Origin: Amycolatopsis palatopharyngis
GTDB taxonomy: Bacteria > Actinomycetota > Actinomycetes > Mycobacteriales > Pseudonocardiaceae
Reading direction: 5' to 3'
DNA: 64,000 bases
NCBI RefSeq assembly: GCF_003385185.1
Contig: NZ_PQHZ01000024.1
Location: forward strand, 1-64,000
Each line of letters begins with the position of its first letter. The stretch's first letter is position 1. The position numbers were made by a program, and so were the translations under genes. Shown one piece after another: positions 17,067-57,948 of this stretch. Under the pieces are notes generated by a model. That model was given only the letters and a program-made list of their open reading frames with translations, was not told where the DNA came from and did no database searches.

Positions 17067-17089
17067 CCCCCAGGCCCCGAACCCCCTCC

Positions 17090-17396: not shown

Positions 17397-17404
17397 AGGT
17401 GCTT

Positions 17405-36838: not shown

Positions 36839-37882
36839 GTGAATCCGAAGAAGAGAGCGATCACCGTGGCCGTAGCGGGGACGGCCGCAGGAGCCCTCGG
36901 GCTCGGCCTGATCGCGATGCCCGCGGGGGCGGGCGACGATCCGCAGCTTCCCGCCATCACCGCCGAGGAACTCGTCGAGTCCACGCTGCGGGCGGAAACG
37001 CCTGAGCTGGCGGGCACGGTCGAGGTGGACAACGGTCTCGGCATTCCTTCGGTACCGGGGGTACCCGCGCTGGACCTCGACTCGGCGAAGGTCTTCAGCG
37101 ACGGCGAGGGACGCAGCAAGCTCATGCTGCGACAGGGCAACAGTGACCACACGATCGTGCAGGACGGGGCGACGATCTGGTCCTACGACTCCGCGGACAA
37201 CGCCGCGACGCGGATGCGGCTCGCAAAGGATGGACAGCGTCCCGAGTCCGCGCGGCAGAGCGCCGATCCGGCCGCGATCGCCGCGGAAGTACTCGGCGCG
37301 ATCCGGGAGAGCAGCACGGTTTCCGTCGACGGGACAGCCACGGTCGCGGGCCGCGCCGCCTACGAGCTCGTGCTCACTCCCAACCCCGACGAGCGCACGC
37401 TGCTGCGCGAGGTTCGCGTCGCGGTGGACTCGGGTACACGGCTGCCGCTGCGCCTCGATGTCATGGTCAACGGCACGACCGAGCCAGTGCTCGGCGTCGG
37501 CTTCAGCGAGATCACCTTCGGCGACCAGCCGGAGGAGCTGTTCCGCTTCACCCCGCCACCGGGCGCGACCGTGACCGAGAAGAGCACCGGGACCGATCCG
37601 GAGCAGCGGCGTGCCGCAGGCGCGGCAGCGGAGAACACCCGATTCGTCGGCGACGGCTGGGACACGGTGCTCGTGACCGAACTCCCGGCAGGCGTCACCG
37701 AGTCCGAGGCAGGGGAAACCGACGTGCGCGGCCTCCTCGACCAGATCGGCAGGCCGGTCTCCGGTCCGTTCGGCAGCGGCCACGTGATCAGCACGAACGC
37801 TGTCACCGCGCTGGTCACCGCGGACGGCAGGGTCGCCGCGGGTGCGGTTCCGGAGCAGGTGCTCATGGAGGCATTGACGTAA
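36839..37882 (+). CDS. Secreted LolA/RseB-like protein
   Basis: 347-residue exported protein. The signal peptide VNPKKRAITVAVAGTAAGALGLGLIAMPAGAG is followed by a fold like outer-membrane lipoprotein carrier/sigma-factor regulator domains (SAKVFSDGEGRSKLMLRQGNSDHTIVQDGATIWSYDSADN, PEELFRFTPPPGATV). In actinobacteria such proteins occur beside two-component systems or ABC exporters and may bind lipids or act as signal receptors. GTG with AGGGAGAGAATC. Its TAA stop overlaps the ATG of the 26-codon mini-gene (TAATG), which in turn overlaps the ABC ATPase. Confidence 0.85.
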   Translation: MNPKKRAITVAVAGTAAGALGLGLIAMPAGAGDDPQLPAITAEELVESTLRAETPELAGTVEVDNGLGIPSVPGVPALDLDSAKVFSDGEGRSKLMLRQGNSDHTIVQDGATIWSYDSADNAATRMRLAKDGQRPESARQSADPAAIAAEVLGAIRESSTVSVDGTATVAGRAAYELVLTPNPDERTLLREVRVAVDSGTRLPLRLDVMVNGTTEPVLGVGFSEITFGDQPEELFRFTPPPGATVTEKSTGTDPEQRRAAGAAAENTRFVGDGWDTVLVTELPAGVTESEAGETDVRGLLDQIGRPVSGPFGSGHVISTNAVTALVTADGRVAAGAVPEQVLMEALT

Positions 37883-37962
37883 TGAGCGACCGGCACCGTG
37901 ACCGAGTCGGGTACGGCACTGAGCGATGTGCGGCCCGCCTGCGAATGAGGCAAGAGACATGA
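37882..37962 (+). CDS. Mini-gene cassette copy A (26 codons), linking LolA-like gene and ABC ATPase
   Basis: ORF beginning MSDRHRDRVGYGTERCAARL and ending RMRQET. Its ATG overlaps the previous stop (TAATG), and its TGA overlaps the next ATG (ACATGAG). It belongs to a family with copies at 44043, 54133 and 54210. The end of the unit (AGGCAAGAG) supplies the Shine-Dalgarno site of the downstream gene. Nucleotide identity with the other copies is highest in GGCACTGAGCGATGTGC. No known peptide family recognised. It could be a translated coupling leader. Confidence 0.75.
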   Translation: MSDRHRDRVGYGTERCAARLRMRQET

Positions 37963-43512: not shown

Positions 43513-43516
43513 GACG

Positions 43517-43636
43517 CTCCTTGTTCCCGCCGAGGCCAAGGAGGGGGCCCTCCCTGCGCCGGCATGATCCGGATCAGGTGCGAACGGTCGCGGGCTGGCG
43601 CCCGCCTCTCAGCCCGGCACTGCCGGACTCCCGTGG
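43517..43636 (-). promoter_or_regulatory. TPP (thi-box) riboswitch with SD-sequestering helix
   Basis: On the minus strand the conserved thi-box elements appear in order: GGGCTGAGAG (about 43606-43615), the P4/P5 core ACCTGATCCGGATCATGCCG and the closing CGCAGGGAGG. CTCCTTG after the aptamer can pair with the thiB SD CAAGGAG, while CCCTCC can pair with GGAGGG. This gives mutually exclusive folds for ligand-dependent translation control. Sits directly upstream of thiBPQ. Confidence 0.95.
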
Positions 43637-43676
43637 CGAATGTGCAGCGTACCTGTGTAGGTACCACCATGGGGAC

Positions 43677-43967
43677 ATGGCCGAATTACTGAGCGAGGAC
43701 GCGATCAACGAAGCGCTCGAGCACCTCCCCGAATGGACGCGGGAGGGGGAAGTACTGGAACGCACCGCGAAGCTCGACAGCTTCCCGCAGGCGATCCAGG
43801 TGGTGAATCGCATCGCCGAGATCGCCGAGAACGAAAACCACCACCCCGACATCGACATCCGTTGGCGCACCTTGATCTTTCGGTTGAGCACCCACTCCGA
43901 GGGTGGCCTCACCGGCAAGGACACGGCGATGGCCGCGGAGATCGACGGAGTCATCTCCGCCGTGTGA
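43677..43967 (+). CDS. Pterin-4a-carbinolamine dehydratase
   Basis: 96-residue protein with the active-site block NENHHPDIDIRWRTLIFRLSTHSEGGLT typical of the family (H-H-P-D...W...H). It recycles 4a-hydroxytetrahydrobiopterin, or in bacteria may act in molybdopterin or folate side reactions. ATG at 43677; an earlier in-frame opening is less likely. It diverges from the thiamine operon. The cassette-fused membrane protein begins 75 bp downstream. Confidence 0.93.
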   Translation: MAELLSEDAINEALEHLPEWTREGEVLERTAKLDSFPQAIQVVNRIAEIAENENHHPDIDIRWRTLIFRLSTHSEGGLTGKDTAMAAEIDGVISAV

Positions 43968-44042
43968 TCTCGCCGACCCGAGGCAACACTGCTAGGGGGC
44001 TCACGCGTTTCGCGTATGGGAGACACGCGAGGAGGGAGCGCT

Positions 44043-44408
44043 ATGAGCGACCGGCACTGTGAGCGAGTCGGGTACGGCACTGAGCGATGTGCAGCCCGCT
44101 GGCGAGTGAGGCAAGAGGCGAGCAACAGTGTGCACAGGGGGCACCGATCGAGTGCGGTGGCCGTTCAGCGGGTTACCTCGTTCGTGGCGGCAGCGGGCAT
44201 GGTGCTCGCGGTGCTGCTCGGATCGGTACCGCAGGCGGCAGCGTCACCTGCGGATCAGCAGCGCGAACGCGCCGCCGTGCAGCAGAGCGGCGAGACGCAG
44301 GCGTTCGTCGTCGGCGGCCTCGCCTTCGTGCTGATGGTCGGTGCCGCGGGGGCGGTGCTGTGGTTCACCGCGAAGGGCCGCAACCACTCGAGCCACGGAC
44401 ACAACTGA
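44043..44408 (+). CDS. Two-helix membrane protein fused in frame to mini-gene cassette copy B
   Basis: 121-residue ORF. The first 25 codons are the cassette (MSDRHCERVGYGTERCAARW RVRQE), but the terminal stop has changed (GCGAGC instead of ACATGA), so it reads into a protein with a signal-like helix (TSFVAAAGMVLAVLLGSVPQAAASP), a short polar loop, a TM helix (AFVVGGLAFVLMVGAAGAVLWFTA) and a His-rich tail (NHSSHGHN). A strong SD AGGAGGGAGCG precedes the cassette ATG. Translation could alternatively begin at GTG 44130. The membrane part is of unknown function; the fusion is the notable feature. Confidence 0.7.
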   Translation: MSDRHCERVGYGTERCAARWRVRQEASNSVHRGHRSSAVAVQRVTSFVAAAGMVLAVLLGSVPQAAASPADQQRERAAVQQSGETQAFVVGGLAFVLMVGAAGAVLWFTAKGRNHSSHGHN

Positions 44409-44409
44409 T

Positions 44410-44526
44410 CGCACTTTCCCGGGAAAGCGCGGGTCCCCGATTCGCACTTTCCCGGGAAAGCGCTCGCAGGAAAACTCTCGTCCCAGGTCACCGGCCTTGC
44501 CCCTCGCACTTTCCCGGGAAAGTGCG
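44410..44526. repeat. Three 22-bp palindromes (33- and 62-bp spacing)
   Basis: Copies start at 44410, 44443 and 44505. The 33 then about 63 spacing repeats the pattern at the left end of the 17-kb array, and CCAGGTCACCGG before the third copy matches the 63-bp unit there. Lies between convergent genes. Confidence 0.95.
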
Positions 44527-44631
44527 AGGAAGGTGATCTTGATCACAAGTGGCCGGGGATGCTAACGACGGTCATGATCGTGGCGTTGTTTCCGTCGACA
44601 GACCTCGACGACCTGCAGGGAACCCGCCGCC

Positions 44632-44739
44632 ATGAACCGCACCGCACCCGCTCTCACCCCCATCCAACAGGCCTGGGTCGCGGTCCTCGCGGCGACCGTG
44701 ACACTCGTGCTGGTGTTCCTGCTGGGCGCCGTGGCCTAG
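44632..44739 (+). CDS. Tiny single-helix membrane protein
   Basis: 35-residue ORF: MNRTAPALTPIQQA followed by one TM helix (WVAVLAATVTLVLVFLLGAVA). It ends in TAG overlapping the purC stop on the opposite strand (shared CTAG). The SD is weak (AGGGAA, distant). Composition is plausible for a real actinobacterial small membrane protein, but support is only from ORF content. Confidence 0.45.
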   Translation: MNRTAPALTPIQQAWVAVLAATVTLVLVFLLGAVA

Positions 44740-45581
44740 TCGGTGCTCGGCTGCCAGGTGTTGCCGGTGATCCGCTCGTAGACCTCGGCGTAGCGCTGCC
44801 TGGTCGCCTGGACGATCTCCTCCGGCACCTCCGGGCCCGGCGCGGTCTTGTCCCAACCGGTGCCTGCCGCCCAGTCGCGCACGTACTGCTTGTCGAAGGC
44901 GTACTGCGGACGGCCGGGCTCCCACTGGTCCGCGGGCCAGAAGCGGGAGGAATCGGAAGTCAGCACCTCGTCGCCCAGATTGAGCACGCCGTCGGCGTCC
45001 CGGCCGAACTCGAACTTCGTGTCGGCGACGATGATGCCCTTGCTCGCGGCGTGCTCCGCGCCCCTGCTGTAGATCTCCAGGGTGAGGTCCCGCAGCCGCT
45101 CCGCCGTCTCCCGGCCCTCCTGGTCGACGACGTCCTGGAAGGTGATGAACTCGTCGTGCCCGGTGTCGGATTCCTTCGTCGTCGGCGTGAAGATCGGCTC
45201 GGGCAGCCTGCTCCCCTCGACCAGCCCGGGCGGGAGCGCGACGCCGGACACTGTGCCGTACTTCTGGTACTCGCGAAGGCCGAGACCGGCCAGATAGCCG
45301 CGGGCGATGCATTCGACCTTGACCATCTCGAGCTGCTTGCACCGGATCGCCCGCCCGGCGAAGTCCGCGGGCACGTCAGTGGCCGACAGGAGGTGGTTGG
45401 GCACGACGCCGGCGAACTGCTCGAACCACCACACGGACAGCTGCGTCAGGAGCGCGCCCTTGTCCGGGATCGGTGTCGGCAGGGAGACGTCGTAGACCGA
45501 GACCCGATCCGACGCCACGAGCAGGATGTCGCCCCTGTCCTCGTAAAGGTCGCGCACCTTGCCCGCGTGGATGTGCTTCAT
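44736..45581 (-). CDS. purC: SAICAR synthetase
   Basis: 281-residue purine biosynthesis enzyme that joins aspartate to CAIR. Motifs KHIHAGKVRDLYEDRGDILLVASDRVSVYDV, VECIARGYLAGLG, IIVADTKFEFGRDADG and DEVLTSDSSRFWPADQWEPG are diagnostic. ATG start. Followed upstream by a decayed accessory patch. It converges with the small membrane protein. Confidence 0.97.
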   Translation of the reverse strand: MKHIHAGKVRDLYEDRGDILLVASDRVSVYDVSLPTPIPDKGALLTQLSVWWFEQFAGVVPNHLLSATDVPADFAGRAIRCKQLEMVKVECIARGYLAGLGLREYQKYGTVSGVALPPGLVEGSRLPEPIFTPTTKESDTGHDEFITFQDVVDQEGRETAERLRDLTLEIYSRGAEHAASKGIIVADTKFEFGRDADGVLNLGDEVLTSDSSRFWPADQWEPGRPQYAFDKQYVRDWAAGTGWDKTAPGPEVPEEIVQATRQRYAEVYERITGNTWQPSTD

Positions 45582-45594
45582 CGCCCGCCCTCCA

Positions 45595-45781
45595 TCATGT
45601 CCTCGCCGCGCTCAACGTGACCTCGCTACCAGCGCGAACGTTCGCCTGAAGCCGCACTGTAACCAGCGGGACGGCACGCCGGTGCCTCGGGTGGGAGTCG
45701 CCCGTGAGCAGCAGCCGAGCGAGTAGGGAAACGTAACGCCCCAGGCGCTGCCTGCCGTGGTCGCGCGGGAAACAGGTGTCA
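45595..45781 (-). pseudogene. AbiEii toxin remnant
   Basis: The ATG overlaps the AbiEi stop (CTATGACACC), as in AbiE operons. It reads MTPVSRATTAGSAWG, then diverges; a neighbouring frame continues with YVSLLARLLLTGDSHP, resembling the LARL segment of AbiEii nucleotidyltransferases. Frame is broken and the rest is missing. Assignment is tentative. Confidence 0.4.
45705..45723. repeat. 19-bp direct repeat, left copy
   Basis: TGAGCAGCAGCCGAGCGAG, identical to 46241-46259, 536 bp apart, flanking the truncated AbiEi reading frame. May mark an insertion/deletion or duplication. Confidence 0.85.
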
Positions 45782-46240
45782 TAGAAGAACCTCCAAGGCA
45801 TGACGCAGCGCGGGCGCACCCTTGCGGAACTGGGTGGCCATCCGCAGCAGGGTTGATGGTTGTCCACCCCTGCGCAGCCAGCGGCGCAGCGCCTCGTTAC
45901 CCATTTCTGGCCCCTCGTGTTCACGGAACCGGAAGGCGTCGATGATCGACCGTTCAGGGTTGTAGGTCCCGATGCTCGTCGCCTCATCCAGGTCAATGAC
46001 TCCCCTGCCGATGTCGAAAGTGTCTGGATCGAACTGATGCCAGGCAACGGGGGCTGCGGTGTCAGCAGGGCGGGTTCCGCGCGGCAACGCGACGTCAAGC
46101 TGTGCGGGTATGTCGTCGATCAGGTCGTGCCGCGCCAACGCGGTACGCAGGCAGAGTGTGGCGCGAGGTCGTTGAGCCGCGATCTCGATTAGATCCTCGT
46201 CGCCAGCTGCACCGGCCTTGCGTTCGCCTATGCAGCCCAA
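45779..46240 (-). pseudogene. AbiEi antitoxin/regulator, N-terminally truncated
   Basis: 153-codon frame whose body matches the C-terminal domain of AbiEi family antitoxins (RATLCLRTALARHDLIDDIPAQLDVALPRGTRPADTAAPVAWHQFDPDTFDIG; TYNPERSIIDAFRFREHEGPEMGNEALRRWLRRGG). The N-terminal winged-helix domain that should precede EDLIEIAAQRP is absent. The frame begins abruptly at TTG directly beside the 19-bp repeat at 46241. AbiE operons are type IV toxin-antitoxin/abortive infection systems. This copy is probably non-functional, as its toxin partner is also broken. Confidence 0.75.
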
Positions 46241-46259
46241 TGAGCAGCAGCCGAGCGAG
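46241..46259. repeat. 19-bp direct repeat, right copy
   Basis: TGAGCAGCAGCCGAGCGAG; see 45705-45723. It abuts the 5' end of the AbiEi fragment. Confidence 0.85.
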
Positions 46260-46331
46260 CCTCAGAGCAGCCCGTCCGTATCGACGGGACCCGTTGCGGG
46301 CTCTGCGCTGACTGCCCCTGGGCCCGAACGC

Positions 46332-46362
46332 GCCAGACTAGACGTTGAAGCGGAACTCGACC
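46332..46362. repeat. Duplicated ychF 3'-end segment (left copy, at doc 3' end)
   Basis: GCCAGA then AGACGTTGAAGCGGAACTC and ACC, matching 47470-47500 at 28 of 31 positions. It encodes VEFRFNV-stop in both doc and ychF. 1138 bp apart in the same orientation. Confidence 0.9.
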
Positions 46363-46754
46363 GGGTTCCGTGGTTGGGCAACTTCAGCGCGAGTCCACCC
46401 AGAAAGGCATTCGGCGACTTCCCGGTAGGCCATCGCCCCGGTTGTTGTCGCGATCACCAGGTCATACGCGTCGTCCTCCGGCGCCTCCAGATCTACGTCA
46501 TTGAGACCGTAGAAGACGAAGACCGCCATCCAGCCCAGCCGCTTGTTACCGTCGACGAGGGAATGATTGCGGACGATCGATTCCAGGAGAACCGCGGCTT
46601 TCTCATGCAGGCTCGGATAAGCGTCCTGCCCCATCAGCGAAAACTGTGGCCGGTGCACCGCCGCGTCGAGCAAACCCAGGTCCCGCACTCGGGAAACACC
46701 CAGATCGGTCGCAAGAGTGAGCAAGTCGTCCAGCGTCAGGTACTCGATCTTCAC
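46338..46754 (-). CDS. doc: Doc/Fic-family toxin
   Basis: 138-residue death-on-curing-type protein. Motif HSLVDGNKRLGWMA is the Doc version of the Fic motif (H-x-x-x-D-G-N-K-R), which phosphorylates or AMPylates targets such as EF-Tu. GTG start overlaps the antitoxin stop (GTGA). The last residues NPVEFRFNV duplicate the C-terminus of YchF encoded 1.1 kb away, and the protein is about 10 residues longer than usual Doc. So the 3' end was replaced or supplied by a ychF-derived segment. It is still open and may be functional. Confidence 0.88.
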   Translation of the reverse strand: MKIEYLTLDDLLTLATDLGVSRVRDLGLLDAAVHRPQFSLMGQDAYPSLHEKAAVLLESIVRNHSLVDGNKRLGWMAVFVFYGLNDVDLEAPEDDAYDLVIATTTGAMAYREVAECLSGWTRAEVAQPRNPVEFRFNV

Positions 46755-46954
46755 TGCGCCAGCCGGTCGAGCAACGACGCGTACCGTTCGCGACCATCCC
46801 GCGACAGGGCACGAACCCGATCGTCACGGACCGAGCGGGCAGCGGCCTCGGTGATCGCCCGCACAACCGCTTCGTGCTTGCTCACTCCTTCGGCCTCGGC
46901 GAGCATGGCGAGGGCACGCTCCTGCTCCGCGTTCAACCTCAACGTCATCGCCAT
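46751..46954 (-). CDS. Antitoxin partner of Doc
   Basis: 67-residue protein with an N-terminal ribbon-helix-helix look (MAMTLRLNAEQERALAMLAEAEGVSKHEAVVRAITEAAARS) and a helical C-terminus (RDDRVRALSRDGRERYASLLDRLAQ) that should neutralise the toxin. It precedes and overlaps doc by 4 bp. An inverted repeat overlaps its 5' region and is the probable operator for autoregulation. An in-frame ATG nine codons earlier lies inside this operator. Confidence 0.85.
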   Translation of the reverse strand: MAMTLRLNAEQERALAMLAEAEGVSKHEAVVRAITEAAARSVRDDRVRALSRDGRERYASLLDRLAQ

Positions 46955-46960
46955 GAGCCC

Positions 46961-46981
46961 ATGATACCACTTCGGTATCAT
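46961..46981. promoter_or_regulatory. Operator of the Doc/antitoxin operon
   Basis: ATGATACC-ACTTC-GGTATCAT, a perfect 8-bp inverted repeat 6 bp upstream of the antitoxin ATG. Typical position for ribbon-helix-helix antitoxin autorepression. Confidence 0.8.
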
Positions 46982-47486
46982 GATCGATCGCGAGAACCGG
47001 ACCCGCGTGAACGCGCTCCGCCAGTGCACGGCCGGGGTCGGCGAGGAGCTAAGGAACACGCGACGGACCGCGTTCGTGACTTGTCAATGCCAACTGCCAT
47101 GCTTATGTCGTGCCCGAGGATGCCCCGCAGAAGACGGACAACCGCCATTCGCTGAGCCGATTCGGCTCGTCGGTGGGCATGTCAGCGCCCCGGTCTCGAT
47201 TGATGCCGTGTTGCGCGATGCCGTGTTGCGCGAGGACCTGCTAGGGATCGACCTCGTCGCCCGAGTCCCGAAAGGGATCCCCAAACACGAGTGGTCGCTT
47301 GACCTCGGCGATGCCCTCCACAACCTCCGAAGCGCGTTCGATGCTGTGGCCTGGGGCATGGCGCACTTCAACGACGTCACCGCCGTTTGGTCGCTGCGTG
47401 TGAGACTCGGCCGTCTGCCACCCGGCAGCAATACGAATCCGTGCGCCACACGAATCACTTCTTGCCGCTGCCAGATCAGACGTTGA
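46980..47486 (+). pseudogene. Fragment of a phage/ICE-type protein
   Basis: Only a central stretch is recognisable: VPKGIPKHEWSLDLGDALHNLRSAFDAVAWGMAHFND. It resembles proteins with the 'GDxLHNLRSALDxxxW' signature often found on mobile elements. Both ends lack similarity: the N-terminal part reads as non-coding and the C-terminal part runs into the ychF duplication. Probably a remnant. Confidence 0.45.
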
Positions 47487-47500
47487 AGCGGAACTCCACC
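47470..47500. repeat. Duplicated ychF 3'-end segment (right copy, genuine ychF end)
   Basis: Partner of 46332-46362. Includes the YchF stop and last codons. The pair resembles attachment-site duplication at a gene 3' end. Confidence 0.85.
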
Positions 47501-48558
47501 ACGTCGCCGTCGTGCATGACGTAGTCCTTGCCCTCGATTCGCACCTTGCCCGCGGACTTGGCGGTCGCCATCGAACCCGCCTCGATCAGGTCGTCGTAGG
47601 AGACCACCTCGGCCTTGATGAAGCCGCGCTCGAAGTCGGTGTGGATGACGCCGGCGGCCTGTGGCGCCGTCGCGCCCTTCGACACGGTCCACGCGCGGGC
47701 CTCCTTCGGGCCCGCCGTGAGGTACGTCTGCAGTCCGAGGGTGTGGAATCCGGCCCTGGCCAGCGCGTGCAGGCCCGGCTCCTCCTGCCCGACGGACTCC
47801 AGCAGCTCGCGGACCGACTCCTCGTCGTCCAGTTCCAGCAGCTCGGACTCGACCTTGGCGTCGAGGAAGACGGCATCGGCGGGGGCGACCATCTTGACCA
47901 GCTCCGCGCGGCGAGCCTCGTCGGTCAGCACGCCCTCGTCGGCGTTGAACACGTACAGGAACGGCTTGGTGGTGAGCAGACTCAGCTCGCGCAGCACCTC
48001 GCCGTCGATCTCCTTCTGTGCGGAGAACAGCGTCCGGCCCTCGTCCAGAATCTCCTTGGCCCGCTGGGCGTTCTCCAGCGCGGGCCGGTTCTCCTTCTTG
48101 GTCCTGGCTTCCTTCTCCATCCGCGGCAGCGCCTTCTCCAGCGTCTGCAGGTCGGCCAGGATGAGCTCGGTGTTGATCGTCTCGATGTCGGACATCGGAT
48201 CGATCCGGCCGTCGACGTGCACCACGTCCGGGTCGTCGAAGACCCGGATCACCTGGCAGATCGCGTTGGCCTCGCGGATGTTCGCCAGGAACTTGTTACC
48301 GAGCCCGGCCCCCTCGGAAGCACCTTTGACAATGCCCGCGATGTCCACGAAGGACACGACGGCGGGCACGGTCTTGGCCGACGCGAACAGCTCGGCGAGC
48401 TTGTCGAGGCGAGGATCCGGCAGTGGGACCACACCTACGTTGGGCTCGATCGTGGCGAACGGGTAGTTCGCCGCGAGGGCGTCGTTCCGGGTCAGCGCGT
48501 TGAACAACGTGGACTTGCCGACATTGGGCAGGCCGACGATACCGAGGGTGAGGCTCAC
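47476..48558 (-). CDS. ychF: Redox-responsive ATPase YchF (Obg family)
   Basis: 360-residue P-loop ATPase that binds ribosomes and takes part in stress responses. G1 GLPNVGKSTLFNALT, DIAGIVKGASEGAGLGNKFL, and the C-terminal TGS-like region (LQTYLTAGPKEARAWTVSKGATAPQAAGVIHTDFERGFIKAEVVSYDDL...VVEFRFNV) are all present. ATG start, full length. Rv1112 occupies the same neighbourhood with ispH. The 3' end is duplicated in doc. Confidence 0.97.
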   Translation of the reverse strand: MSLTLGIVGLPNVGKSTLFNALTRNDALAANYPFATIEPNVGVVPLPDPRLDKLAELFASAKTVPAVVSFVDIAGIVKGASEGAGLGNKFLANIREANAICQVIRVFDDPDVVHVDGRIDPMSDIETINTELILADLQTLEKALPRMEKEARTKKENRPALENAQRAKEILDEGRTLFSAQKEIDGEVLRELSLLTTKPFLYVFNADEGVLTDEARRAELVKMVAPADAVFLDAKVESELLELDDEESVRELLESVGQEEPGLHALARAGFHTLGLQTYLTAGPKEARAWTVSKGATAPQAAGVIHTDFERGFIKAEVVSYDDLIEAGSMATAKSAGKVRIEGKDYVMHDGDVVEFRFNV

Positions 48559-48594
48559 GGCCGCGCAGTCTACGTGGCCGCGCCGGCGGCTCGA

Positions 48595-48816
48595 TCAGCC
48601 GTCGTCCTCGCCGCCGTCTCCGCCGTAGCCGCCACCTTCACCCTCTTCGCCGCCACCCTCCTCGTCCTGCTGTTCGCCACCGCCGTCCTCCTGCTGGGTA
48701 CCACCGTCCTCACCAGGGGACGTCTCGTCGCAGGCGGCAAGAAAACCGATGGATCCGGCCGCCGCCAGTGCGGCCGCGAACAGACGGACAGATCGGGAAC
48801 GCGCAGTAGACCTCAT
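48595..48816 (-). CDS. Small acidic Gly-rich lipoprotein
   Basis: 73-residue protein with signal peptide and lipobox (AALAAAGSIGFLAAC-DE) followed by a disordered acidic Gly/Glu/Gln tail (GEDGGTQQEDGGGEQQDEEGGG). Likely an outer-leaflet-anchored tether of unknown role. No SD before the ATG; TACCGT eight bases upstream suggests a leaderless message. Confidence 0.75.
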   Translation of the reverse strand: MRSTARSRSVRLFAAALAAAGSIGFLAACDETSPGEDGGTQQEDGGGEQQDEEGGGEEGEGGGYGGDGGEDDG

Positions 48817-48857
48817 ACCGGAAACGGTAGTGACAATCCCGGCTCCCCGCAGCGCGT

Positions 48858-48931
48858 CGCACTTTCCCGGGAAAGCGCGAAGGGCTCCGAGGTGGCGGGG
48901 GTACCGACTCGCACTTTCCCGGGAAAGTGCG
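48858..48931. repeat. Two 22-bp palindromes
   Basis: Copies at 48858-48879 and 48910-48931 (52 bp apart), same family as elsewhere, here in the divergent region between the lipoprotein gene and the AdaA-AlkA gene. Confidence 0.95.
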
Positions 48932-49038
48932 ACATCTTGTGGGTGATGGAGGTGCGCGGCGGCGACCGGATCCGGGCATGGACGGTCGCGGCGGATTTCC
49001 GCCAGTCGACGTCCTCACCTGGTGGCAGTATCGAGGGC

Positions 49039-50598
49039 ATGGCACAGGCGAGCACGGCACTGAACCCGGTGGACCGCATCGGCACCAAGGGCATCTGGCG
49101 GGACACCGAACGGTGCTACCGGGCCGTCATGTCCCGTGACTCCAGGTTCGACGGTCAGTTCATCACCGCGGTGCGCACCACCGGCATCTACTGCCGTCCG
49201 TCCTGCCCTGCCCTGACTCCCAAGCCGCAGAACGTGCGGTTCTTCCCGACCTCGGCGGCCGCACAGGCCGGTGGCTACCGAGCCTGCCGCCGCTGCCTGC
49301 CCGACGCCGTGCCCGGATCGCCGGAGTGGAACGTCCGCGCCGATCTCGCCGCTCGCGCGATGCGGCTGATCTCCGACGGTGTCGTCGAACGCGATGGCGT
49401 TCCCGGCCTCGCAAGGCAGCTCGGCTACTCCGAGCGCCAGCTCGGCAGGGTGCTGACGGCGGAACTCGGTGCGGGCCCGCTCGCACTGGCCAGGGCCCAT
49501 CGGGCGCATTCGGCACGGCTGCTCATCGAACGCTCCGCCCTGCCCCTGACCGACGTCGCATTCGCGGCGGGTTTCGCCAGCGTCCGGCAGTTCAACGACA
49601 CGATCCGCGAGGTGTTCGCCACCACCCCGTCGCAGCTGCGCGCCGGAACCCGCAGGGCAACCGGCGGCGGGATCGAGAACGGCACCGGTGAGGACGCCCA
49701 CCGAGGCACTCGGCTCACCCTGCGCCTGCCCTTCCGGCCGCCGTTCGACGCCGCGGGCACGCTCGAGTTCCTCGCGACACGCGCGGTGTCCGGAGTCGAG
49801 CAGATCGAGCGGGACGAACAGACCGGCCAGATCAACGCCTACCTCCGCACACTGCGCCTGCCCCAGGGCATCGGCGCCGTCCGGCTCACCCCCGCCGATC
49901 GGCACGTCCAGTGCGATCTACGGCTCACCGACGTCCGTGATCTCGGCAGCGCGGTATCCAGGGTGCGCAGGCTGCTGGACCTCGACGCCGACCCAGCCGC
50001 CGTCGTGGCGACGTTGAACACCGACCCCCTGCTGGCACCGCTGGTCGCAAAGACGCCGGGCATCCGCGTTCCGGGCGCGGTCGACGGCGCGGAACTCGTC
50101 CTGCGAGCCATGCTGGGACAGCAGGTGTCGGTGGCCGCGGCGCGCACGGCCGCGGGCAGGCTCACCGCCGCACTGGGCGAACACGTCGCGATGGCCGACG
50201 AGGACGCTCCACACCTGCTTTTCCCGTCCGCACAGGCCGTCGCCGAGGGCGGGATGGATGTGCTCCGCGGCCCGCGCAAGCGGTCCGAGGCCATCACACA
50301 GGTGGCAACCATGCTGGCCGACGGCAGCCTGGACCTGCATGTCGGCCGGGACGCTTCCGAGTTGCGGGCCGATCTGCTCGCGACCCCCGGCATCGGGCCG
50401 TGGACCGCCGACTACGTGCTGATGCGCCTGCTCGGCGACCCCGATGTGCTCCTCGACGGCGACCTGGTCCTGCGCAAGGGTGCTGCCGCCCTCGGCATCC
50501 CCGCCGACCGCCTCACCGGTCACTCCCAGTCGTGGCGGCCATGGCGCACCTACGCGGGGATGTATCTATGGCGTGCCGCCGAACACGCCACCCCCTGA
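49039..50598 (+). CDS. alkA: AdaA-AlkA fusion: methyl-responsive regulator plus 3-methyladenine DNA glycosylase
   Basis: 519-residue repair protein. Residues 20-95 form the Ada N-terminal zinc domain with Cys ligands (FITAVRTTGIYCRPSCPALTPKPQNVRFF; GYRACRRCLP), which takes methyl groups from DNA phosphotriesters. About 100-200 form an AraC-type DNA-binding domain (PGLARQLGYSERQLGRVLTAELG; PLTDVAFAAGFASVRQFNDTIREVFATTPSQLR). The rest is AlkA glycosylase with the helix-hairpin-helix LLATPGIGPWTADYVLMRLLGDPD and Asp-containing DGDLVLRKG. It sits directly before ogt, as in the mycobacterial Rv1317c-Rv1316c pair. The adaptive response to alkylation is the expected function. ATG at 49039 assumed. 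Confidence 0.94.
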   Translation: MAQASTALNPVDRIGTKGIWRDTERCYRAVMSRDSRFDGQFITAVRTTGIYCRPSCPALTPKPQNVRFFPTSAAAQAGGYRACRRCLPDAVPGSPEWNVRADLAARAMRLISDGVVERDGVPGLARQLGYSERQLGRVLTAELGAGPLALARAHRAHSARLLIERSALPLTDVAFAAGFASVRQFNDTIREVFATTPSQLRAGTRRATGGGIENGTGEDAHRGTRLTLRLPFRPPFDAAGTLEFLATRAVSGVEQIERDEQTGQINAYLRTLRLPQGIGAVRLTPADRHVQCDLRLTDVRDLGSAVSRVRRLLDLDADPAAVVATLNTDPLLAPLVAKTPGIRVPGAVDGAELVLRAMLGQQVSVAAARTAAGRLTAALGEHVAMADEDAPHLLFPSAQAVAEGGMDVLRGPRKRSEAITQVATMLADGSLDLHVGRDASELRADLLATPGIGPWTADYVLMRLLGDPDVLLDGDLVLRKGAAALGIPADRLTGHSQSWRPWRTYAGMYLWRAAEHATP

Positions 50599-50638
50599 CC
50601 CCGTCCTGCCAACCCGAAAACCTCAGGAGAAGCGAACG

Positions 50639-51142
50639 ATGAGTACCGCGCACTGGTCCACTCAGCAGACCCCGATCGGGCCGTTCACCGCGGTCGTCGC
50701 CACGGACGGCGCCGTACTGGGCTCCGGCTGGACCGACGATCCGCACCTGCTGACCGCGGTGATGTCGCCGTCACTGCGCCCTGGCGAGCTGTCCCACAAG
50801 CGGGATCTGGGTGCGGTCACCGCCGCCGTCCGCCGTTATCACCAGGGCGAACTCGGTGCCGTGGACGAGATCGTGGTGCGGCAACGCTCGGGTGAGTTCA
50901 TGCAGCAGGCCTGGGAAGTGCTGCGCACGGTGCCCGCCGGAAAGCCGGTGACCTACAGCGACTACGCCGCGCTCGCCGGCAGGCCCGCCGCCGTCCGTGC
51001 CGCGGCGGCCGCCTGCGCCCGCAACGCGGCGGCACTCTTCGTCCCTTGCCATCGGGTGCTGCGCATCGGCGGGGCACTCGGCGGCTTCCGCTGGGGGCTG
51101 CAGACAAAACGTTGGCTGCTCGACCACGAGACGGCAGCCTGA
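50639..51142 (+). CDS. ogt: Methylated-DNA--protein-cysteine methyltransferase
   Basis: 167-residue suicide repair enzyme that removes methyl from O6-methylguanine. Active-site PCHRVL is preceded by the helix-turn-helix region PAGKPVTYSDYAALAGRPAAVRAAAAACARNAAALFV. In most relatives this region reads YG..A...G....RAVG.A...NP; here the usual N-P before the active site is N-A. ATG with AGGAGAAGCGAACG. Operon with the AdaA-AlkA fusion 40 bp upstream. Confidence 0.93.
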   Translation: MSTAHWSTQQTPIGPFTAVVATDGAVLGSGWTDDPHLLTAVMSPSLRPGELSHKRDLGAVTAAVRRYHQGELGAVDEIVVRQRSGEFMQQAWEVLRTVPAGKPVTYSDYAALAGRPAAVRAAAAACARNAAALFVPCHRVLRIGGALGGFRWGLQTKRWLLDHETAA

Positions 51143-51154
51143 GCTGCGAAAATC

Positions 51155-54136
51155 TCAGGCCAGGAGTTCGAGGGTGGACCCGGCCCGGGCCTTGCGGACA
51201 CGCAACCGGGTCGGGATCCGCTGCCGGAGTTCCTCGACGTGGGAGACCAGGCCGACGACACGGCCACCCGCCCGCAGCTCGTCCAGCACGTCCATCACGA
51301 TGTCGAGCGTCTCGGCGTCGAGGGTGCCGAACCCCTCGTCGACGAACAGCGTGTCCAGCAGTGCTCCACCGGTCTCCGCCGCGACGACGTCAGCGAGGCC
51401 GAGCGCCAGCGCCAGTGACGCCAGGAAGCTCTCGCCGCCGGAGAGCGTCTTGGCCGGGCGCACCGACCCGGAGTAGTCGTCGAGGACGTCGAGCCCGAGA
51501 CCACCCCTGGTGCCCCGCGAGCCCGCGGCGTCGGAGTGGACGAACGAGTAACGGCCCTGGCTCATCGTCCTGAGCCGGGCGGTCGCCGCCACGGCGACCT
51601 CCTCGAGCCGGGCGGCCAGCACGTACGAACGCAATGACATCTTTCGGCTGTTCTGGCCCCTGCCGTTGACCACGTCGGTCAGGGCGTCCAGTTCCGCGTA
51701 CTCCGCCTCGGCGGGCCCGAGTTCGGCATCCACGACGGCGTAATGCCCCGCCAACTCGGCCACGTTCCGTTCCCGATAGGCAGCCGCCCGGTGTGCCGAT
51801 ACCGCGGATTCCGCCTCGGCCCGCGCCCGGTTGACCTCCGCGATCGCCGCATCGAGGTCGACCTCGGTGTCCGGCGAGATCGAAGCCAGTTCCGGTTCGG
51901 CCAGCACAGCCCGCGCCGCGGCCTCGGCAGTACGCGCCTCGGTGAGCCTGCGCTCCAGCTCCGTCCGCACGGAGTTCGGCCGCGCGGCCTCCCGCGCCGA
52001 CTCCACCGAGTCGAACTCGGCCGACACCAGGGCCTCCCGAAGAGCCGCGCGCTGTTCCGCCAACCGGTCCTCGACACCGATCCGAGCCGACCTCGCCTCA
52101 GCCAGCGCCTCGAGCGCCTCCAGCACGGACACGAGGTGTGCGCGCCGGGCGGCGACGTCCTGGTGTTCGCCCCTGGCCTCGGTGAGCCTGCGCCGCCGCT
52201 CCTCGATCTGCGCGGCCAGCGAAGTGCGCTCGGCGTGCGCCGCCGCTGCCCGCTGCTCGGCCTCCGCCCTCCGGGTGTGCAACTCCTCGGCCTCGGCCTC
52301 GGCAGCTGCCACCGCCCGCTCCAGCTGTGGCTTGCGCTCTGCCGTCTCTGCCAGGCCCGCGATCTCGGCCCGGACCTCCGCGAGCAGGCGGTCGAGTTCC
52401 TCGGCCGTGCGCCCCGCGAGCCGTTCCCGCACGGCTGCCAGCGCGGCGTCGGCCTCGTGCCGGAGCGCGACCGCCTGCTGCCTGCGGCGGTCCGCGGACT
52501 GTTCCGATTCGGTGGCCGCACGCTCGTCCTGCTCACCAACGGAGTCAGCCACCGGTTCCGCCGGGACCGGGTGCTCGGCAGAGCCGCACACCGGGCACGG
52601 CGACCCACTGTCCAGTCGCGCGGCGAGTTCCGCGGCCATCCCGTTGAGCCTGCGCTCGCGCAGGTCGAGCAGCTGTTGCCGGATGCGCTGATGCTCGTCG
52701 ACGGCTGCCCGCTCGCCCTCGGCCGCCCGCTCCAGCTCGCCGATGAGGCCGGGCAGCCGGTTCGCCTCCACCAGCAACGCGGCCAATTCCCGCTCCCTCG
52801 GCCGGAGACCGCCGAGAGCCACCTCCGCCTCGGCTGCGGAGTCCCGATCGGCGCGCAGCCGGCGTATCCGCTCCGGCAGCGCGTCGCGTTCCGCCGCGAG
52901 CGCCGACGCTCGGGCGGTGGCCTCCTCGGCCGTGGTGGCCAGCTCGGCCACGCGCAACTCGTCACGGTCCTGTTGCTCCGCCTCTGCGACGAGGCCGGCC
53001 AGCGCTCCGGCTTCCTCACGCAGCACGCCAGCCCTGGCACGCAGGGCGGGCACACCAGTCGTCGTGAGTTCGAGATCGTCGGGATCGCCCGCCCTTGCCG
53101 TCGCCCTGACCAGCTCGAGCCGGTCCGCTTCCGAGGCCAGAGCGTGGCGGAGCCGCTCCGCGAGCCGGTCGGTCTCGGTGGCCACGTCCGTCACCGTCCC
53201 GGCACGGCGCGCGGCGGCCAGTTCGCTTTCCCACCTGGCTCGGTCGTCGGCCTGCTCGGCCACCTCGGCAAGGCGTGCGTGTGCCGAACGCACGCGGCGG
53301 ACCCGCTCGGCCAGAGTGCGGCGTTCCTGCAGGTCCCGATCCGCACGTTCCCGGGACTCGTTGGCCACCAGCTCGGCCTTCTCCGCCTCGGCGAGGGCTC
53401 CGCTGACCCGCGACCGCAGCTCGGTCAACCACTCCTGCCCCGGTTCCTCGGGGGGCTCCTCTCCCGCCGCCTGCGCCAGGCGTGCGGCCAGCTCCCGAAC
53501 CCCCTGCCTGGCCGTCTCGACCTCCCTGCCCCTGCGCACCCGGAGGTCGCGGAACCAGCGCTCGACTTCGCCGAAACGCCGGGTGCCGAAAAGCCGCTCC
53601 AGCAGCTGTTCCCGCTCGGCCGTGTCGGCTCGGAGGAAGCGGGCGAACTCACCCTGTGGCAACAGCACGACCTGGAAGAACTGCTCCGCGCTCATGCCGA
53701 GCAGTCGCTGCACGGTCCGGGCGACCTCGTCGATCCTGGTCAGCCCGTCCGGCGGCTGGCCCTGCGGTGGCGGCCCGATCCAGGTCAACGATGCCTTCGC
53801 CTGCTGGGTGGTGGTGCCATCGCCCCTGCGCTTCGGGCGTTGATACTCGGGGCTGCGCACGAGCCGCAGCCGCTGTCCCTGGACAGTGAGCTCGAGCACG
53901 ACCTCGGTGACCGCATCAGCGCCCGCGAGATCGCAGCGCAGGCGCTTCACCTGCCCGCGAGCCCCCGGTACGGCTCCGAACAGCGCGAACGCGATCGCGT
54001 CGAGCAGGGTGGTCTTCCCAGCGCCGGTGTCGCCGTGCAGCAGGAAGAGACCGTCGGCTCCCAGCGCGTCGAAATCGACGGTCTCGCGCCGCACGTACGG
54101 ACCGAAGGCCTCGACCTCAAGACTGTGCAGTCTCAT
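51155..54136 (-). CDS. sbcC: Exonuclease SbcC (Rad50-like ATPase)
   Basis: 993-residue SMC-like subunit of the SbcCD nuclease that cleaves hairpins and DNA ends. N-terminal Walker A GDTGAGKTTLL, long Glu/Arg/Ala-rich coiled coils, the zinc hook CPVCG near residue 515, and the C-terminal signature LSGGESFLASLALALGLADVV with Walker B DTLFVDEGFGTLD are all present. The true start is taken at MRLHSLEVEAFGPYVR, whose ATG overlaps the mini-gene stop (ATATGAGA). Two mini-gene cassettes separate it from sbcD. Confidence 0.96.
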   Translation of the reverse strand: MRLHSLEVEAFGPYVRRETVDFDALGADGLFLLHGDTGAGKTTLLDAIAFALFGAVPGARGQVKRLRCDLAGADAVTEVVLELTVQGQRLRLVRSPEYQRPKRRGDGTTTQQAKASLTWIGPPPQGQPPDGLTRIDEVARTVQRLLGMSAEQFFQVVLLPQGEFARFLRADTAEREQLLERLFGTRRFGEVERWFRDLRVRRGREVETARQGVRELAARLAQAAGEEPPEEPGQEWLTELRSRVSGALAEAEKAELVANESRERADRDLQERRTLAERVRRVRSAHARLAEVAEQADDRARWESELAAARRAGTVTDVATETDRLAERLRHALASEADRLELVRATARAGDPDDLELTTTGVPALRARAGVLREEAGALAGLVAEAEQQDRDELRVAELATTAEEATARASALAAERDALPERIRRLRADRDSAAEAEVALGGLRPRERELAALLVEANRLPGLIGELERAAEGERAAVDEHQRIRQQLLDLRERRLNGMAAELAARLDSGSPCPVCGSAEHPVPAEPVADSVGEQDERAATESEQSADRRRQQAVALRHEADAALAAVRERLAGRTAEELDRLLAEVRAEIAGLAETAERKPQLERAVAAAEAEAEELHTRRAEAEQRAAAAHAERTSLAAQIEERRRRLTEARGEHQDVAARRAHLVSVLEALEALAEARSARIGVEDRLAEQRAALREALVSAEFDSVESAREAARPNSVRTELERRLTEARTAEAAARAVLAEPELASISPDTEVDLDAAIAEVNRARAEAESAVSAHRAAAYRERNVAELAGHYAVVDAELGPAEAEYAELDALTDVVNGRGQNSRKMSLRSYVLAARLEEVAVAATARLRTMSQGRYSFVHSDAAGSRGTRGGLGLDVLDDYSGSVRPAKTLSGGESFLASLALALGLADVVAAETGGALLDTLFVDEGFGTLDAETLDIVMDVLDELRAGGRVVGLVSHVEELRQRIPTRLRVRKARAGSTLELLA

Positions 54137-54213
54137 ATCTCCTGCCTCACTCGCCGACAGGCTGCACATCGCTCAGTGCCGTCCCCAACTCGCACCCGGC
54201 GCCAGTCGCTCAT
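54133..54213 (-). CDS. Mini-gene cassette copy C (adjacent to sbcC)
   Basis: 26 codons, MSDWRRVRVGDGTERCAACR then RVRQEI. Stop overlaps the sbcC ATG, and start overlaps the stop of copy D. Compared with copy D only two bases differ (GTT/GTC, TGT/TGC), both synonymous. AGGCAGGAG near its end serves as SD of sbcC. Confidence 0.75.
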   Translation of the reverse strand: MSDWRRVRVGDGTERCAACRRVRQEI

Positions 54214-54290
54214 ATCTCCTGCCTCACTCGCCGGCAGGCTGCACATCGCTCAGTGCCGTCCCCGACTCGCACCCGGCGCCAGTCGCTCAT
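54210..54290 (-). CDS. Mini-gene cassette copy D (adjacent to sbcD)
   Basis: Same 26-residue peptide as copy C. Its ATG overlaps the sbcD stop (ATATGAGC), and the stop overlaps the ATG of copy C, so unit length is 77 bp. The sbcD tail itself (GAGGCAGGAGATATGA) equals the cassette tail, supplying an identical SD-start junction. This suggests tandem amplification at this junction. Confidence 0.75.
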   Translation of the reverse strand: MSDWRRVRVGDGTERCAACRRVRQEI

Positions 54291-55444
54291 ATCTCCTGCC
54301 TCGCGTCGGCCTTGCCCGCGGACTCCAGTGCCAGTGCGAGCATCGCGAACTCGCCTTCGGTGGGCGCCGACCCCCTGCAGTCGTCCAGGAACCGCTCGGC
54401 GATCTCGGCATCGCTGCGGCCCCTGACCGCCTCCGCGTATCGCAACTCGGCGCCGGAACCGCCCTCCGGTTGCCAGTCGAGCCGCACCGCGTACGGGAAG
54501 CGCTCGCGCAGCTTGCGCATGGCGTCGACCGGACGCACGCGGTCGACCAGCGTCACCGACAGATAGCAGTCGACGAGATCCGCGAACCGCTCGCCGCAGA
54601 GGAGGTCCTCGAGGTAGCCCTCCGCGGTCGCCAGTCGGCGGGGCACCGGAAGCTCCACCCGTGTGACGTCCGAGAGCCCGTCCGCGTCGAGATCGACCAA
54701 CCAGGCGGACTTGCGCTGGGTGGCCTCGGAGAAGGAGTACGCGAGCGGGCTGCCCGAGTACCGCAGGTGCGGGGCCAGTGTTTGCGGGCCGTGGAGGTGG
54801 CCGAGCGCCACGTAATCCACCCCGTCGAAGACCGTGCCGGGCACCTGTTCGACGCCGCCGACGGCGATAGTGCGTTCGGAGTCACTTCCGGCACCACCGG
54901 TGACGAAGGCGTGCGCGAGCACCACGGAACGCGTTCCGGCCGGTTGCTCAGCCAGATCGGCGCGGATCCGGCGCATCGCCTCGGTGAGTACGCCGGTGTG
55001 CCCTCTCGCCTCGGGGACGCCGAGGGCGTGCCGAGCCGGATCCGGCTCGAGGTAAGGGATCCCGTAGAGGGCCACCGGGCCGTGTTCGTCCTCCAACAGC
55101 GCCGGTTCCCTTAGCCCGTCGATCGTCGTGCGCAGGTGCAGTCCACCCGCGGCGGCGAATTCGGCGAACGCGCCGAGCCGGGCGGCGGAATCGTGGTTTC
55201 CCGAGGTCAGCACAAGTTGTGCCCCCGCGTCCCTGAGCCGGGACAGCGCGGCGGTCGCGACGCGGACGGCCTCGGCAGAGGGCACCGCGCGGTCGTAGAT
55301 GTCACCTGCGACGGCCACCACGTCGACGCGCTGCGCCGTAACGACCTCCGCGAGGTGCGCGAGCACCGCGTCCTGCTCGGCGAGCAGGTCCGCGCCGTGG
55401 AACGTCCGTCCCACGTGCCAGTCGGAGGTGTGCAGAATTCTCAC
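54287..55444 (-). CDS. sbcD: Exonuclease SbcD (Mre11-like)
   Basis: 385-residue metallophosphoesterase nuclease. Conserved motifs HTSDWHVGRTFHG, VAGDIYDRAVPS, LTSGNHDSA, LAHAFVTGG and YVALGHLHGPQTL are present. GTG at 55444 is preferred (HTSDWHVG follows at residue 5). It forms the SbcCD complex with the downstream sbcC through two interposed mini-genes. A LexA box lies 59 bp upstream. Confidence 0.96.
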   Translation of the reverse strand: MRILHTSDWHVGRTFHGADLLAEQDAVLAHLAEVVTAQRVDVVAVAGDIYDRAVPSAEAVRVATAALSRLRDAGAQLVLTSGNHDSAARLGAFAEFAAAGGLHLRTTIDGLREPALLEDEHGPVALYGIPYLEPDPARHALGVPEARGHTGVLTEAMRRIRADLAEQPAGTRSVVLAHAFVTGGAGSDSERTIAVGGVEQVPGTVFDGVDYVALGHLHGPQTLAPHLRYSGSPLAYSFSEATQRKSAWLVDLDADGLSDVTRVELPVPRRLATAEGYLEDLLCGERFADLVDCYLSVTLVDRVRPVDAMRKLRERFPYAVRLDWQPEGGSGAELRYAEAVRGRSDAEIAERFLDDCRGSAPTEGEFAMLALALESAGKADARQEI

Positions 55445-55502
55445 GTGCCCCAAGTTAAGGGGCAGCGCCGACGAAACGGCGCAGACACCCCGACAGATTA
55501 GC

Positions 55503-55518
55503 TCGAACGTGTGTTCGA
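55503..55518. promoter_or_regulatory. LexA (SOS) box
   Basis: TCGAAC-GTGT-GTTCGA, a perfect 6-bp inverted repeat of the actinobacterial LexA type TCGAAC-N4-GTTCGA, in the divergent region of sbcD (59 bp before its GTG) and rmuC (109 bp before its GTG). Predicts damage-inducible expression of sbcDC and possibly rmuC. Confidence 0.85.
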
Positions 55519-55626
55519 GATCATGGATCTGGGTTTTCTGTCGGTGCCGTCGGCCATGATGCGCGGAGGCGATCGACCACGAGCCGGATCAGGCCACGAT
55601 CAGCACGAGCAGAAGGGAGCGCACTG

Positions 55627-56544
55627 GTGGGTTCGACGGTGCTCAGCACGGCAGCGGTGGTGGTGGCGTTGCTGCTGGCGGCCGCGGTCTTCCTGTTGTG
55701 GCGGTTGTACACCGACAGCGTGCGACGGGCCGATGCCGCGGCGAGGCAGGTCGACCTCGAGCGCTCCAGGGTGGATGAGCAGCAGGCCGCGTTGCGCCGG
55801 TACGAGGTGGCGTTCGCCTCGATCAGCGGCCGGGGCGAACTCGGCGAACAGGTACTCGTGGAGACGGCTCGAGCACTGGGACTGCGGGAGGGCCTGCACT
55901 TCACGGTGCAGACCGACCTGGCCGGTGGCGGTGCGGCCAAGCCCGACATGGTGCTGCGGGTGGGCGGCGATCGCAGCGTTCCGGTCGACGCCAAGGCGAG
56001 CATGGCCTGCTGGGCCGAGGCTGTGGAGACCGACGACGCGGCAGAACGGCTGGACGCGCTCCGGGTACACGTACGGAACCTGCGCTCGCGGGCGACCGAG
56101 TTGGCGGCCAAGGGATACCAGCGCTGGGCCGACGCGATCTACGGCACGATCATGTTCGTCCCTTCGGACGCGGCGGTGGTCGCGGCATTGGACACCGACC
56201 CGGAACTCCTGCGGTGGATGCTCGATCGCCGGGTGTTCCTGTGCGGCCCCACCGGTTTCGCGGTGATCGCATCGGGCGCGTTGTTCGCGGCGAGTGAGCG
56301 CGCACTCGTCGAGGACGTGGAGAACGTGCGCAACCGCGCCGCGTCCGCGCACCGGGCAGCCGGTAACGCGGTGGACGCCCTCAACCTGTCCACCACACAC
56401 CTGCAGCGGTTCCTGTCCGCTCGGCGCAGGGAACTGGACGCGCTGGAGAGCTTCCGCGCCTCTGTCGCCCCGCTGACGGAGGCGTCGGGCAGTCCGTCCG
56501 CACTCACCACCATCAGGAAGGGAGACGAGATAGCCGCCAGCTGA
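55627..56544 (+). CDS. rmuC: DNA recombination protein RmuC family
   Basis: 305-residue membrane-anchored nuclease-like protein. An N-terminal TM helix (LSTAAVVVALLLAAAVFLLW) and a short coiled coil are followed by the RmuC domain (SGRGELGEQVLVETARALGLREG; the PVDAKASM motif with the restriction-endonuclease-like Asp/Lys; DAIYGTIMFVPSDAAVVAAL). Relatives limit rearrangements between repeats. GTG start after AGAAGGGAG. LexA box nearby. Confidence 0.92.
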   Translation: MGSTVLSTAAVVVALLLAAAVFLLWRLYTDSVRRADAAARQVDLERSRVDEQQAALRRYEVAFASISGRGELGEQVLVETARALGLREGLHFTVQTDLAGGGAAKPDMVLRVGGDRSVPVDAKASMACWAEAVETDDAAERLDALRVHVRNLRSRATELAAKGYQRWADAIYGTIMFVPSDAAVVAALDTDPELLRWMLDRRVFLCGPTGFAVIASGALFAASERALVEDVENVRNRAASAHRAAGNAVDALNLSTTHLQRFLSARRRELDALESFRASVAPLTEASGSPSALTTIRKGDEIAAS

Positions 56545-57827: not shown

Positions 57828-57866
57828 CCCAAAGCCGTCACCCGGCGAAGGCCGGTGCGGAACATG

Positions 57867-57948
57867 TCCCCAATGTGGCATTCGGGAACCTGAAGTTCCC
57901 CAATGTGGCATTCGGGAACTTCAACGTCCCCAATGTGGCATTGGGGAC
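57867..57948. repeat. Three tandem 30-bp repeats (imperfect palindromes)
   Basis: Units start at 57867, 57897 and 57927, exactly 30 bp apart, each TCCCCAATG-TGG-CATT(C/G)GGGA. The third is a perfect 9-bp hairpin; the first two carry one mismatch. Located between convergent genes (DUF6542 and ispH), so a termination role for both is possible. Confidence 0.95.

Follow-up and report, generated by a model that had tools for sequence, protein, structure and literature searches.

The stretch of Amycolatopsis palatopharyngis DNA analysed here (the window: 64,000 nucleotides, positions 1 to 64,000 of contig NZ_PQHZ01000024.1) carries on its minus strand the genes sbcD (54287..55444, from a predicted start codon) and sbcC (51155..54136, with its ATG at 54136), both with Pfam and NCBIfam matches, and between them two copies of a short repeat, each holding a 26-codon open reading frame (ORF). 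Unit 1 (54210..54290, minus strand) overlaps the sbcD stop with its own ATG, and unit 2 (54133..54213, minus strand) overlaps the sbcC ATG with its own stop; read along that strand, the sbcD stop, unit 1, unit 2 and the sbcC start are linked by three ATGA overlaps. Both units belong to the class called type A below and encode the same 26-aa peptide, MSDWRRVRVGDGTERCAACRRVRQEI, for which neither copy gave a Pfam or NCBIfam match at E<=1. Their spacing is 77 bp, exactly two bases distinguish them, in the synonymous codon pairs GTC/GTT and TGC/TGT, and Tandem Repeats Finder describes the array with a score of 328, a period of 77 and 97% matches. The gene sbcD itself ends in a unit-like tail, GAGGCAGGAGATATGA (ARQEI*). 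On all these points a first-pass annotation of the same DNA was accurate, although the same place in the closest relative, genome G028 (hereafter the sister), reads GAGGCAGGAGTCATGA (ARQES*) with no unit present, so that the tail can exist there without units. The pair is real, and it is one locus of a family of repeats that resembles the mycobacterial interspersed repetitive units (MIRU), reportedly due to Supply et al. in 1997, and for which we found no earlier description in the literature searched (open-licence PMC articles only).

A dispersed repeat at gene junctions

Searched with the unit as query, the whole genome of the strain (7.0 Mb in 131 contigs) returned 54 matches at E<=10, so the sbcD-sbcC pair is not a chance occurrence. 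An iterated profile run over the stretches of this genome that were read gave 61 matches, or 55 distinct copies once six matches on contig C44 that form an exact mirror image had been collapsed; a later profile also places copies at C44:65967 (plus its mirror) and C61:45483, which are not added to the 55. Along contig C44 (277446 bases) the repeat matches are mirrored about the middle, and two tested pairs of stretches are exact reverse complements; the contig may be palindromic, which is probably an assembly artefact. Forty of the 55 distinct copies start with NTGA and make up type A, 32 of them measuring exactly 81 nt from NTGA to ATGA. Another 13 are of type B, which starts with CGCGCGACC or similar and is without an ATGA-to-ATGA frame, and the remaining two (on C84, and the second unit on C41) are irregular relatives of type A. 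Copies diverge by 4.2% inside arrays (14 pairs), as against 17.4% across loci (547 pairs). The genome search proposed in the first-pass annotation has in this way revealed a 77-bp unit, within the 40-100 bp of MIRU, dispersed over one genome in 55 distinct copies, and to judge from the sequence comparison the two mini-genes between sbcD and sbcC are very probably copies of a dispersed minisatellite of MIRU-like design.

The position of the copies relative to genes is regular. Counted from where the last unit starts, the downstream ORF begins at exactly +77 in 23 of 28 NTGA arrays (one of these 23 ORFs is just 55 aa long), and at +76 and +74 in two further arrays. The upstream open frame, defined as at least 100 aa counted stop to stop, terminates on the unit's own TGA in 14 of the 28. 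A small ORF in a -4 nt ATGA overlap with its neighbours, as in MIRU, is present in 36 of 42 coding-type units, by a script criterion that also accepts CTGA junctions and one unit lacking a start codon. Pfam matches were obtained for 18 of 20 neighbouring proteins, 14 of the 20 lying downstream and six upstream, and the genes flanking the units share no common function: the downstream neighbours include EPSP synthase, G6PD, glycerol-3-phosphate dehydrogenase, thioredoxin, an amidase, ABC ATPases, a permease, TetR, an FAD-linked oxidase and a glycosyltransferase, and on the upstream side there are a sigma factor, a PGI-like protein and parts of ABC transporters.

This distribution bears directly on the idea of a dedicated SbcDC coupling or peptide-signal cassette, in which the peptide or the spacer would be selected to balance SbcD and SbcC, as the first-pass annotation had suggested. 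The perfect ATGA overlaps and the purely synonymous differences between the two units count in favour of such a device, but the 28 NTGA arrays lie at unrelated genes, and the peptide, itself without a database match, varies freely across loci. Moreover, the sbcD-sbcC junction of the sister (GCGAGGCAGGAGTC-ATGAGGCTGCAC) has no unit, nor has any of 28 other junctions from the same genus, at all of which sbcC starts with NTGA (30 of 80 loci were read in this survey). A role specific to SbcDC is not supported, and we regard the cassette as extremely unlikely.

Peptide and open frame

The two synonymous differences had been taken to point to selection on the peptide, which the rest of the family does not bear out. 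Among the 40 NTGA copies, the 32 of exact length were used for these tests, the eight left out including frameshifted ones, and for the ratio of nonsynonymous to synonymous changes (pN/pS) they were reduced to one unit per locus (23 loci). The ratio is 0.99 (bootstrap 0.84-1.22), compared with a mean of 0.84 (0.62-1.03) in a neutral simulation, and codon positions 1, 2 and 3 vary about equally among units. About 28% of the pairwise differences between loci are synonymous in any case (871/3147), so that chance alone would make both of two differences synonymous about once in 13 cases. The purifying selection on amino acids that marks a small protein is not seen, and a peptide under selection is rejected on the pN/pS value.

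Stop codons behave differently. Only one of the 32 full-length copies has an in-frame stop, against 10.1 (5-15) simulated from the observed substitutions, and in that copy (C99:49155) the stop is a TAA in last-codon position, immediately ahead of the closing ATG; none of the 11 full-length sister copies seen has one. Counted as single changes leading to a stop, one of 10 possible states is seen where 4.5 are expected, and that one, TTA, gives no stop owing to a second change, while the other frames have no deficit of such states (3 of 6 against 2.1, and 2 of 4 against 1.5). Selection thus seems to act on translatability and not on the peptide. Decay of the unit by frameshifts, with no synonymous bias, had been named beforehand as grounds for abandoning a coding interpretation; synonymous bias is indeed missing and frameshifts are present in some copies, but stops due to point changes fall short of the expected number.

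Empty sites, copy number and spread

The sister, with 43 profile matches, is probably Amycolatopsis marina, the only one of the species genomes scanned to match the exact type-A core (14 stretches), in a scan that may omit records close to the window's own genome. The downstream flanks of 24 further arrays were searched in the sister and 22 were located, which together with sbcDC and four arrays already matched makes 27 comparable arrays. Their orthologous sites are unit-free in 17 cases, carry full units in seven and truncated or remnant copies in three. Fifteen of the 17 unit-free sites present a clean NTGA junction (for example ctgcagac-ATGA-gccgtagg), and C54 and C101, which are counted among the 17, are ambiguous in detail; insertion at start codons and junctions, a trait of MIRU, is visible here in the form of empty sites. 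At the C1 site, GTGA in the sister corresponds to GTGA-unit-ATGA in A. palatopharyngis, an indication that the A of the final ATGA is supplied by the element. Loss from the sister is excluded at sbcDC because the 28 further junctions are unit-free.

Where both species carry the repeat, the number of units may differ (3 v 2, 1 v 2 and 2 v 1, for example), so that tandem arrays vary in copy number between two species at shared sites, as MIRU arrays do. Arrays of 1-3 units that differ in this manner might be taken for adaptive tuners, that is, for a self-spreading element whose copy number is selected through its effect on downstream translation, by analogy with what has been proposed for the length of the repeat upstream of fpg1 in M. 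tuberculosis; longer repeats go with higher fpg1 mRNA, according to PMC2734929. The sites are functionally unrelated, however, and neutral slippage predicts copy-number turnover equally well, and we consider tuning of this kind unlikely.

Four type-A units lie within the window, the sbcDC pair and two more on the plus strand. The unit at 37882..37962, at a gene start, runs from ATGA to ATGA, and the orthologous place in the sister holds a 5'-truncated copy. The unit at 44043..44117 lacks the AT of its 3' junction and its frame continues into the native ORF, which is 25 codons longer near the N-terminus than its counterpart in the sister, where the site is empty. This copy has become an in-frame N-terminal insertion and recalls the Rickettsia palindromic elements, which, like similar in-frame repeats, are palindromic and insert within genes. 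Our repeat has in common with them that a dispersed sequence is tolerated in or beside coding sequence by keeping the frame open, and differs in being inserted at the start/stop junction. A thiamine pyrophosphate (TPP) riboswitch on the minus strand (43533-43644, 60.4 bits, above the Rfam gathering score) lies some 400 bp from the 44043 unit. Elsewhere in the window, positions 17083-17397 hold a 22-bp near-palindrome of the CGCACTTTCCCGGGAAAGTGCG type in six copies, of which five recur with a 63-bp phase, an arrangement suggestive of an operator array or a comparable binding site, and positions 57866-57947 hold a tandem repeat of 30 bp (2.7 copies, 88% matches).

Collections of plasmids and phages gave no match to the repeat, and on these two collections spread on plasmids or phages was rejected. 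A larger target-site duplication, an idea raised by the unit-like end of sbcD, was also rejected, as the sister has the tail without a unit and most other sites share just NTGA or a few more bases.

Non-coding relatives and comparison with MIRU

Relatives of the repeat occur in 17 of 390 Pseudonocardiaceae genomes (8 of 46 genera) by sequence profile, the per-genome copy numbers from this family-wide scan being lower bounds to be read as "at least", and in 14 of 390 (6 of 46 genera) by a structured model; an order-level match in G119 (L182) was judged to be chance. Those read from other genera do not run from ATGA to ATGA and have in common GCGCGACC-GGCACCG ... GAGCGC ... GCCGGCGNGTGAGGC. The start of an ORF of at least 80 aa lies within 31 nt downstream of 29 of the 46 copies read, by a mechanical ORF rule for which the chance level was not computed. 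In genome G442, 10 of 11 copies read (L204-L212, L185) lie 13-18 nt before the ORF starts of apparently diverse genes, and most have an AAGGA/AAGGG-like stretch between copy and ORF start; they could represent a mobile leader or the regulon of an undescribed cis-RNA. Copies in G631 (L203 and L183, one of them tandem) end directly abutting ATG codons, possibly an independent step towards a form that rides on start codons. In G217 (L181), which belongs to another genus of the family, a remnant of the repeat's tail closes an ORF, which by eye looks like NuoI, at a GTGA junction with the next gene. Being short, dispersed and multicopy, with conserved helices, the non-coding relatives are like REP/RAYT and BOX repeats (REP and BOX are mentioned in PMC2267715). 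The repeat is unlike known structured RNA in that no copy searched, at 16 loci and in window positions 36000-56000, has an Rfam match above the gathering score.

The helices were traced in an alignment of 40 copies, in which 97.5% of the cells of two elements, helix P1 of 5 bp and hairpin P2 of 3 bp, are paired and three of the eight pairs show compensatory changes. Their covariation score, for helices chosen on the same alignment as tested, is 0.161 compared with 0.064 in shuffles and was reached by 0 of 500; sliding the helix partners yields at most 57% pairing and a covariation of 0.068, and the count of further pair types is unremarkable, 115 of 500 shuffles attaining it. Folded singly, three sequences, one of them non-coding, gave z values of +1.1, -0.1 and +1.5 against dinucleotide shuffles, and ten non-coding copies ranged inconsistently from +1.4 to -2.8 against simple shuffles, so that the case for structure is made by covariation only. 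In type A, P1 is broken, three of its five pairs being unpaired in at least 30 of 32 copies, and P2 is kept (31-32 of 32 per pair). An RNA structure in the type-A unit was rejected, since excess stability is lacking and a mixed alignment (A1) has no compensatory pair.

The type-A units could be seen as remnants of a structured regulatory leader, cis-acting RNA parts with an incidental open frame, given that two covarying helices are common to the non-coding relatives, that these relatives often lie ahead of start codons, and that P2 is retained. Yet P1 is lost, the three folded sequences are no more stable than their dinucleotide shuffles, and a non-coding role does not predict the shortage of point stops; a leader remnant is accordingly very unlikely. 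We infer instead, as to direction, that type A may be a recoded descendant of the non-coding form. On this basis we tentatively propose, as a reading that falls just short of an even call, that a non-coding, leader-like repeat of the Pseudonocardiaceae was recoded in the lineage of A. palatopharyngis and its sister into a second, independent MIRU-like system, in which translatability is selected. A few substitutions from CGCGC to TGAGC would have created ATGA and broken helix P1, and a patchy 5'-leader-like repeat with conserved helices would have become a translated element riding on start codons, selection bearing on its being translatable and not on what is translated.

The first-pass annotation knew of no described family for these mini-genes, whereas mycobacterial MIRU are a described class with the same architecture: PMC12548453 presents them as apparently mobile, inserted at start codons and carrying an ORF in a -4 overlap with the next gene, an overlap that likely limits damage, and PMC2734929 gives units of 40-100 bp at 41 places. 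On these descriptions, our repeat resembles MIRU in its short dispersed unit, single or tandem, in the small ORF overlapping its neighbour by 4 nt, in its position at start codons and in its variable copy number, MIRU being in addition described as apparently mobile. It differs in its unit of 77 bp and 26 codons, compared with 17-18 codons in the four comparable units read, in its host lineage, and in having non-coding relatives with covarying helices. Kinship was examined with a presumed MIRU core searched in 397 genomes of the order; it was found in 19, all of one genus of another family, presumably Mycobacterium. Four of 12 such loci read have the NTGA-ORF-NTGA design with 17-18 codons, two of these preceding apparently the same gene in two genomes. 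The profiles of our family, run with nhmmer, have no significant similarity to the 12 loci (best E 1.1-1.3), and homology between the two families is not detected in this comparison, made with units obtained through that core. The units would work like MIRU, and descent from MIRU is not supported by sequence.

The dispersion, the junction rule, the empty sites, the shortage of point stops, the lack of peptide conservation and the copy-number differences between two species, all of them computed, can be brought together in one mechanism. Start codons and NTGA start/stop junctions would receive copies of an element of about 77 bp, and the resulting arrangement would be NTGA-[unit]-ATGA. A ribosome arriving from upstream would terminate at the first TGA, restart on the unit's ATG, read 26 largely arbitrary codons and terminate within the ATGA that starts the next gene, where an invariant GAGG 8 nt before that ATG could serve as a Shine-Dalgarno sequence. 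Insertion would be nearly neutral, so that tandem arrays could expand and contract, and selection would tend to preserve the open frame, not the peptide. Translation, coupling, the role of GAGG, the direction of gain at most empty sites and mobility as the cause would all be parts of this scheme, and the preservation of translational coupling may be the reason why the element is tolerated. Of the tandem-amplified coupling or peptide-signal cassette first suggested, the coupling and the tandem amplification fit the architecture, and the peptide signal is not supported, pN/pS being 0.99.

Several observations weigh against the proposal of a mobile, MIRU-like repeat kept in translatable form. The stop tests used indel-free copies treated as independent, which makes the strength of the shortage approximate. 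Six of the 42 coding-type units break the frame or junction rule (two are frameshifted, one carries a 1-nt deletion, one is the copy with TAA, one is the first unit on C41, which has no junction, and one is 44043). In the sister, irregular units make up 5 of the 16 seen, and three of these have an early stop that follows an indel. At C88:33386 our unit starts with GTGA and the sister, which has no unit there, reads ATGA, so that not every difference between the two genomes is a simple insertion, and at sites other than sbcDC units may have been lost from the sister. An IS200/RAYT-type Y1 transposase (PF01797) was not found in A. palatopharyngis, the sister, G470 or G520, which sets the repeat apart from REP/RAYT. 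PF01797 is present in G442 and G631; as four of six multicopy carriers gave no such enzyme, RAYT-driven spread was rejected. Finally, the tail of sbcD (GAGGCAGGAG) and one sister junction (GGCGAGTGA, C44) resemble the unit's tail without a unit, so that homology-guided copying instead of transposition is possible; our guess is that microhomology may guide the copying.

If the proposal is true, the MIRU way of life, in which a repeat persists within tight operons by letting ribosomes travel on across the start/stop overlap, arose at least twice. The Amycolatopsis repeat would then be the cleaner test case, with precise empty sites in a sister species, a scarcity of point stops unaccompanied by peptide conservation, and possibly ancestral non-coding relatives. 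It also carries a warning, for tandem synonymous mini-ORFs at operon junctions can mimic selected peptides, and at such junctions annotation may create spurious small proteins or lengthen real ones.

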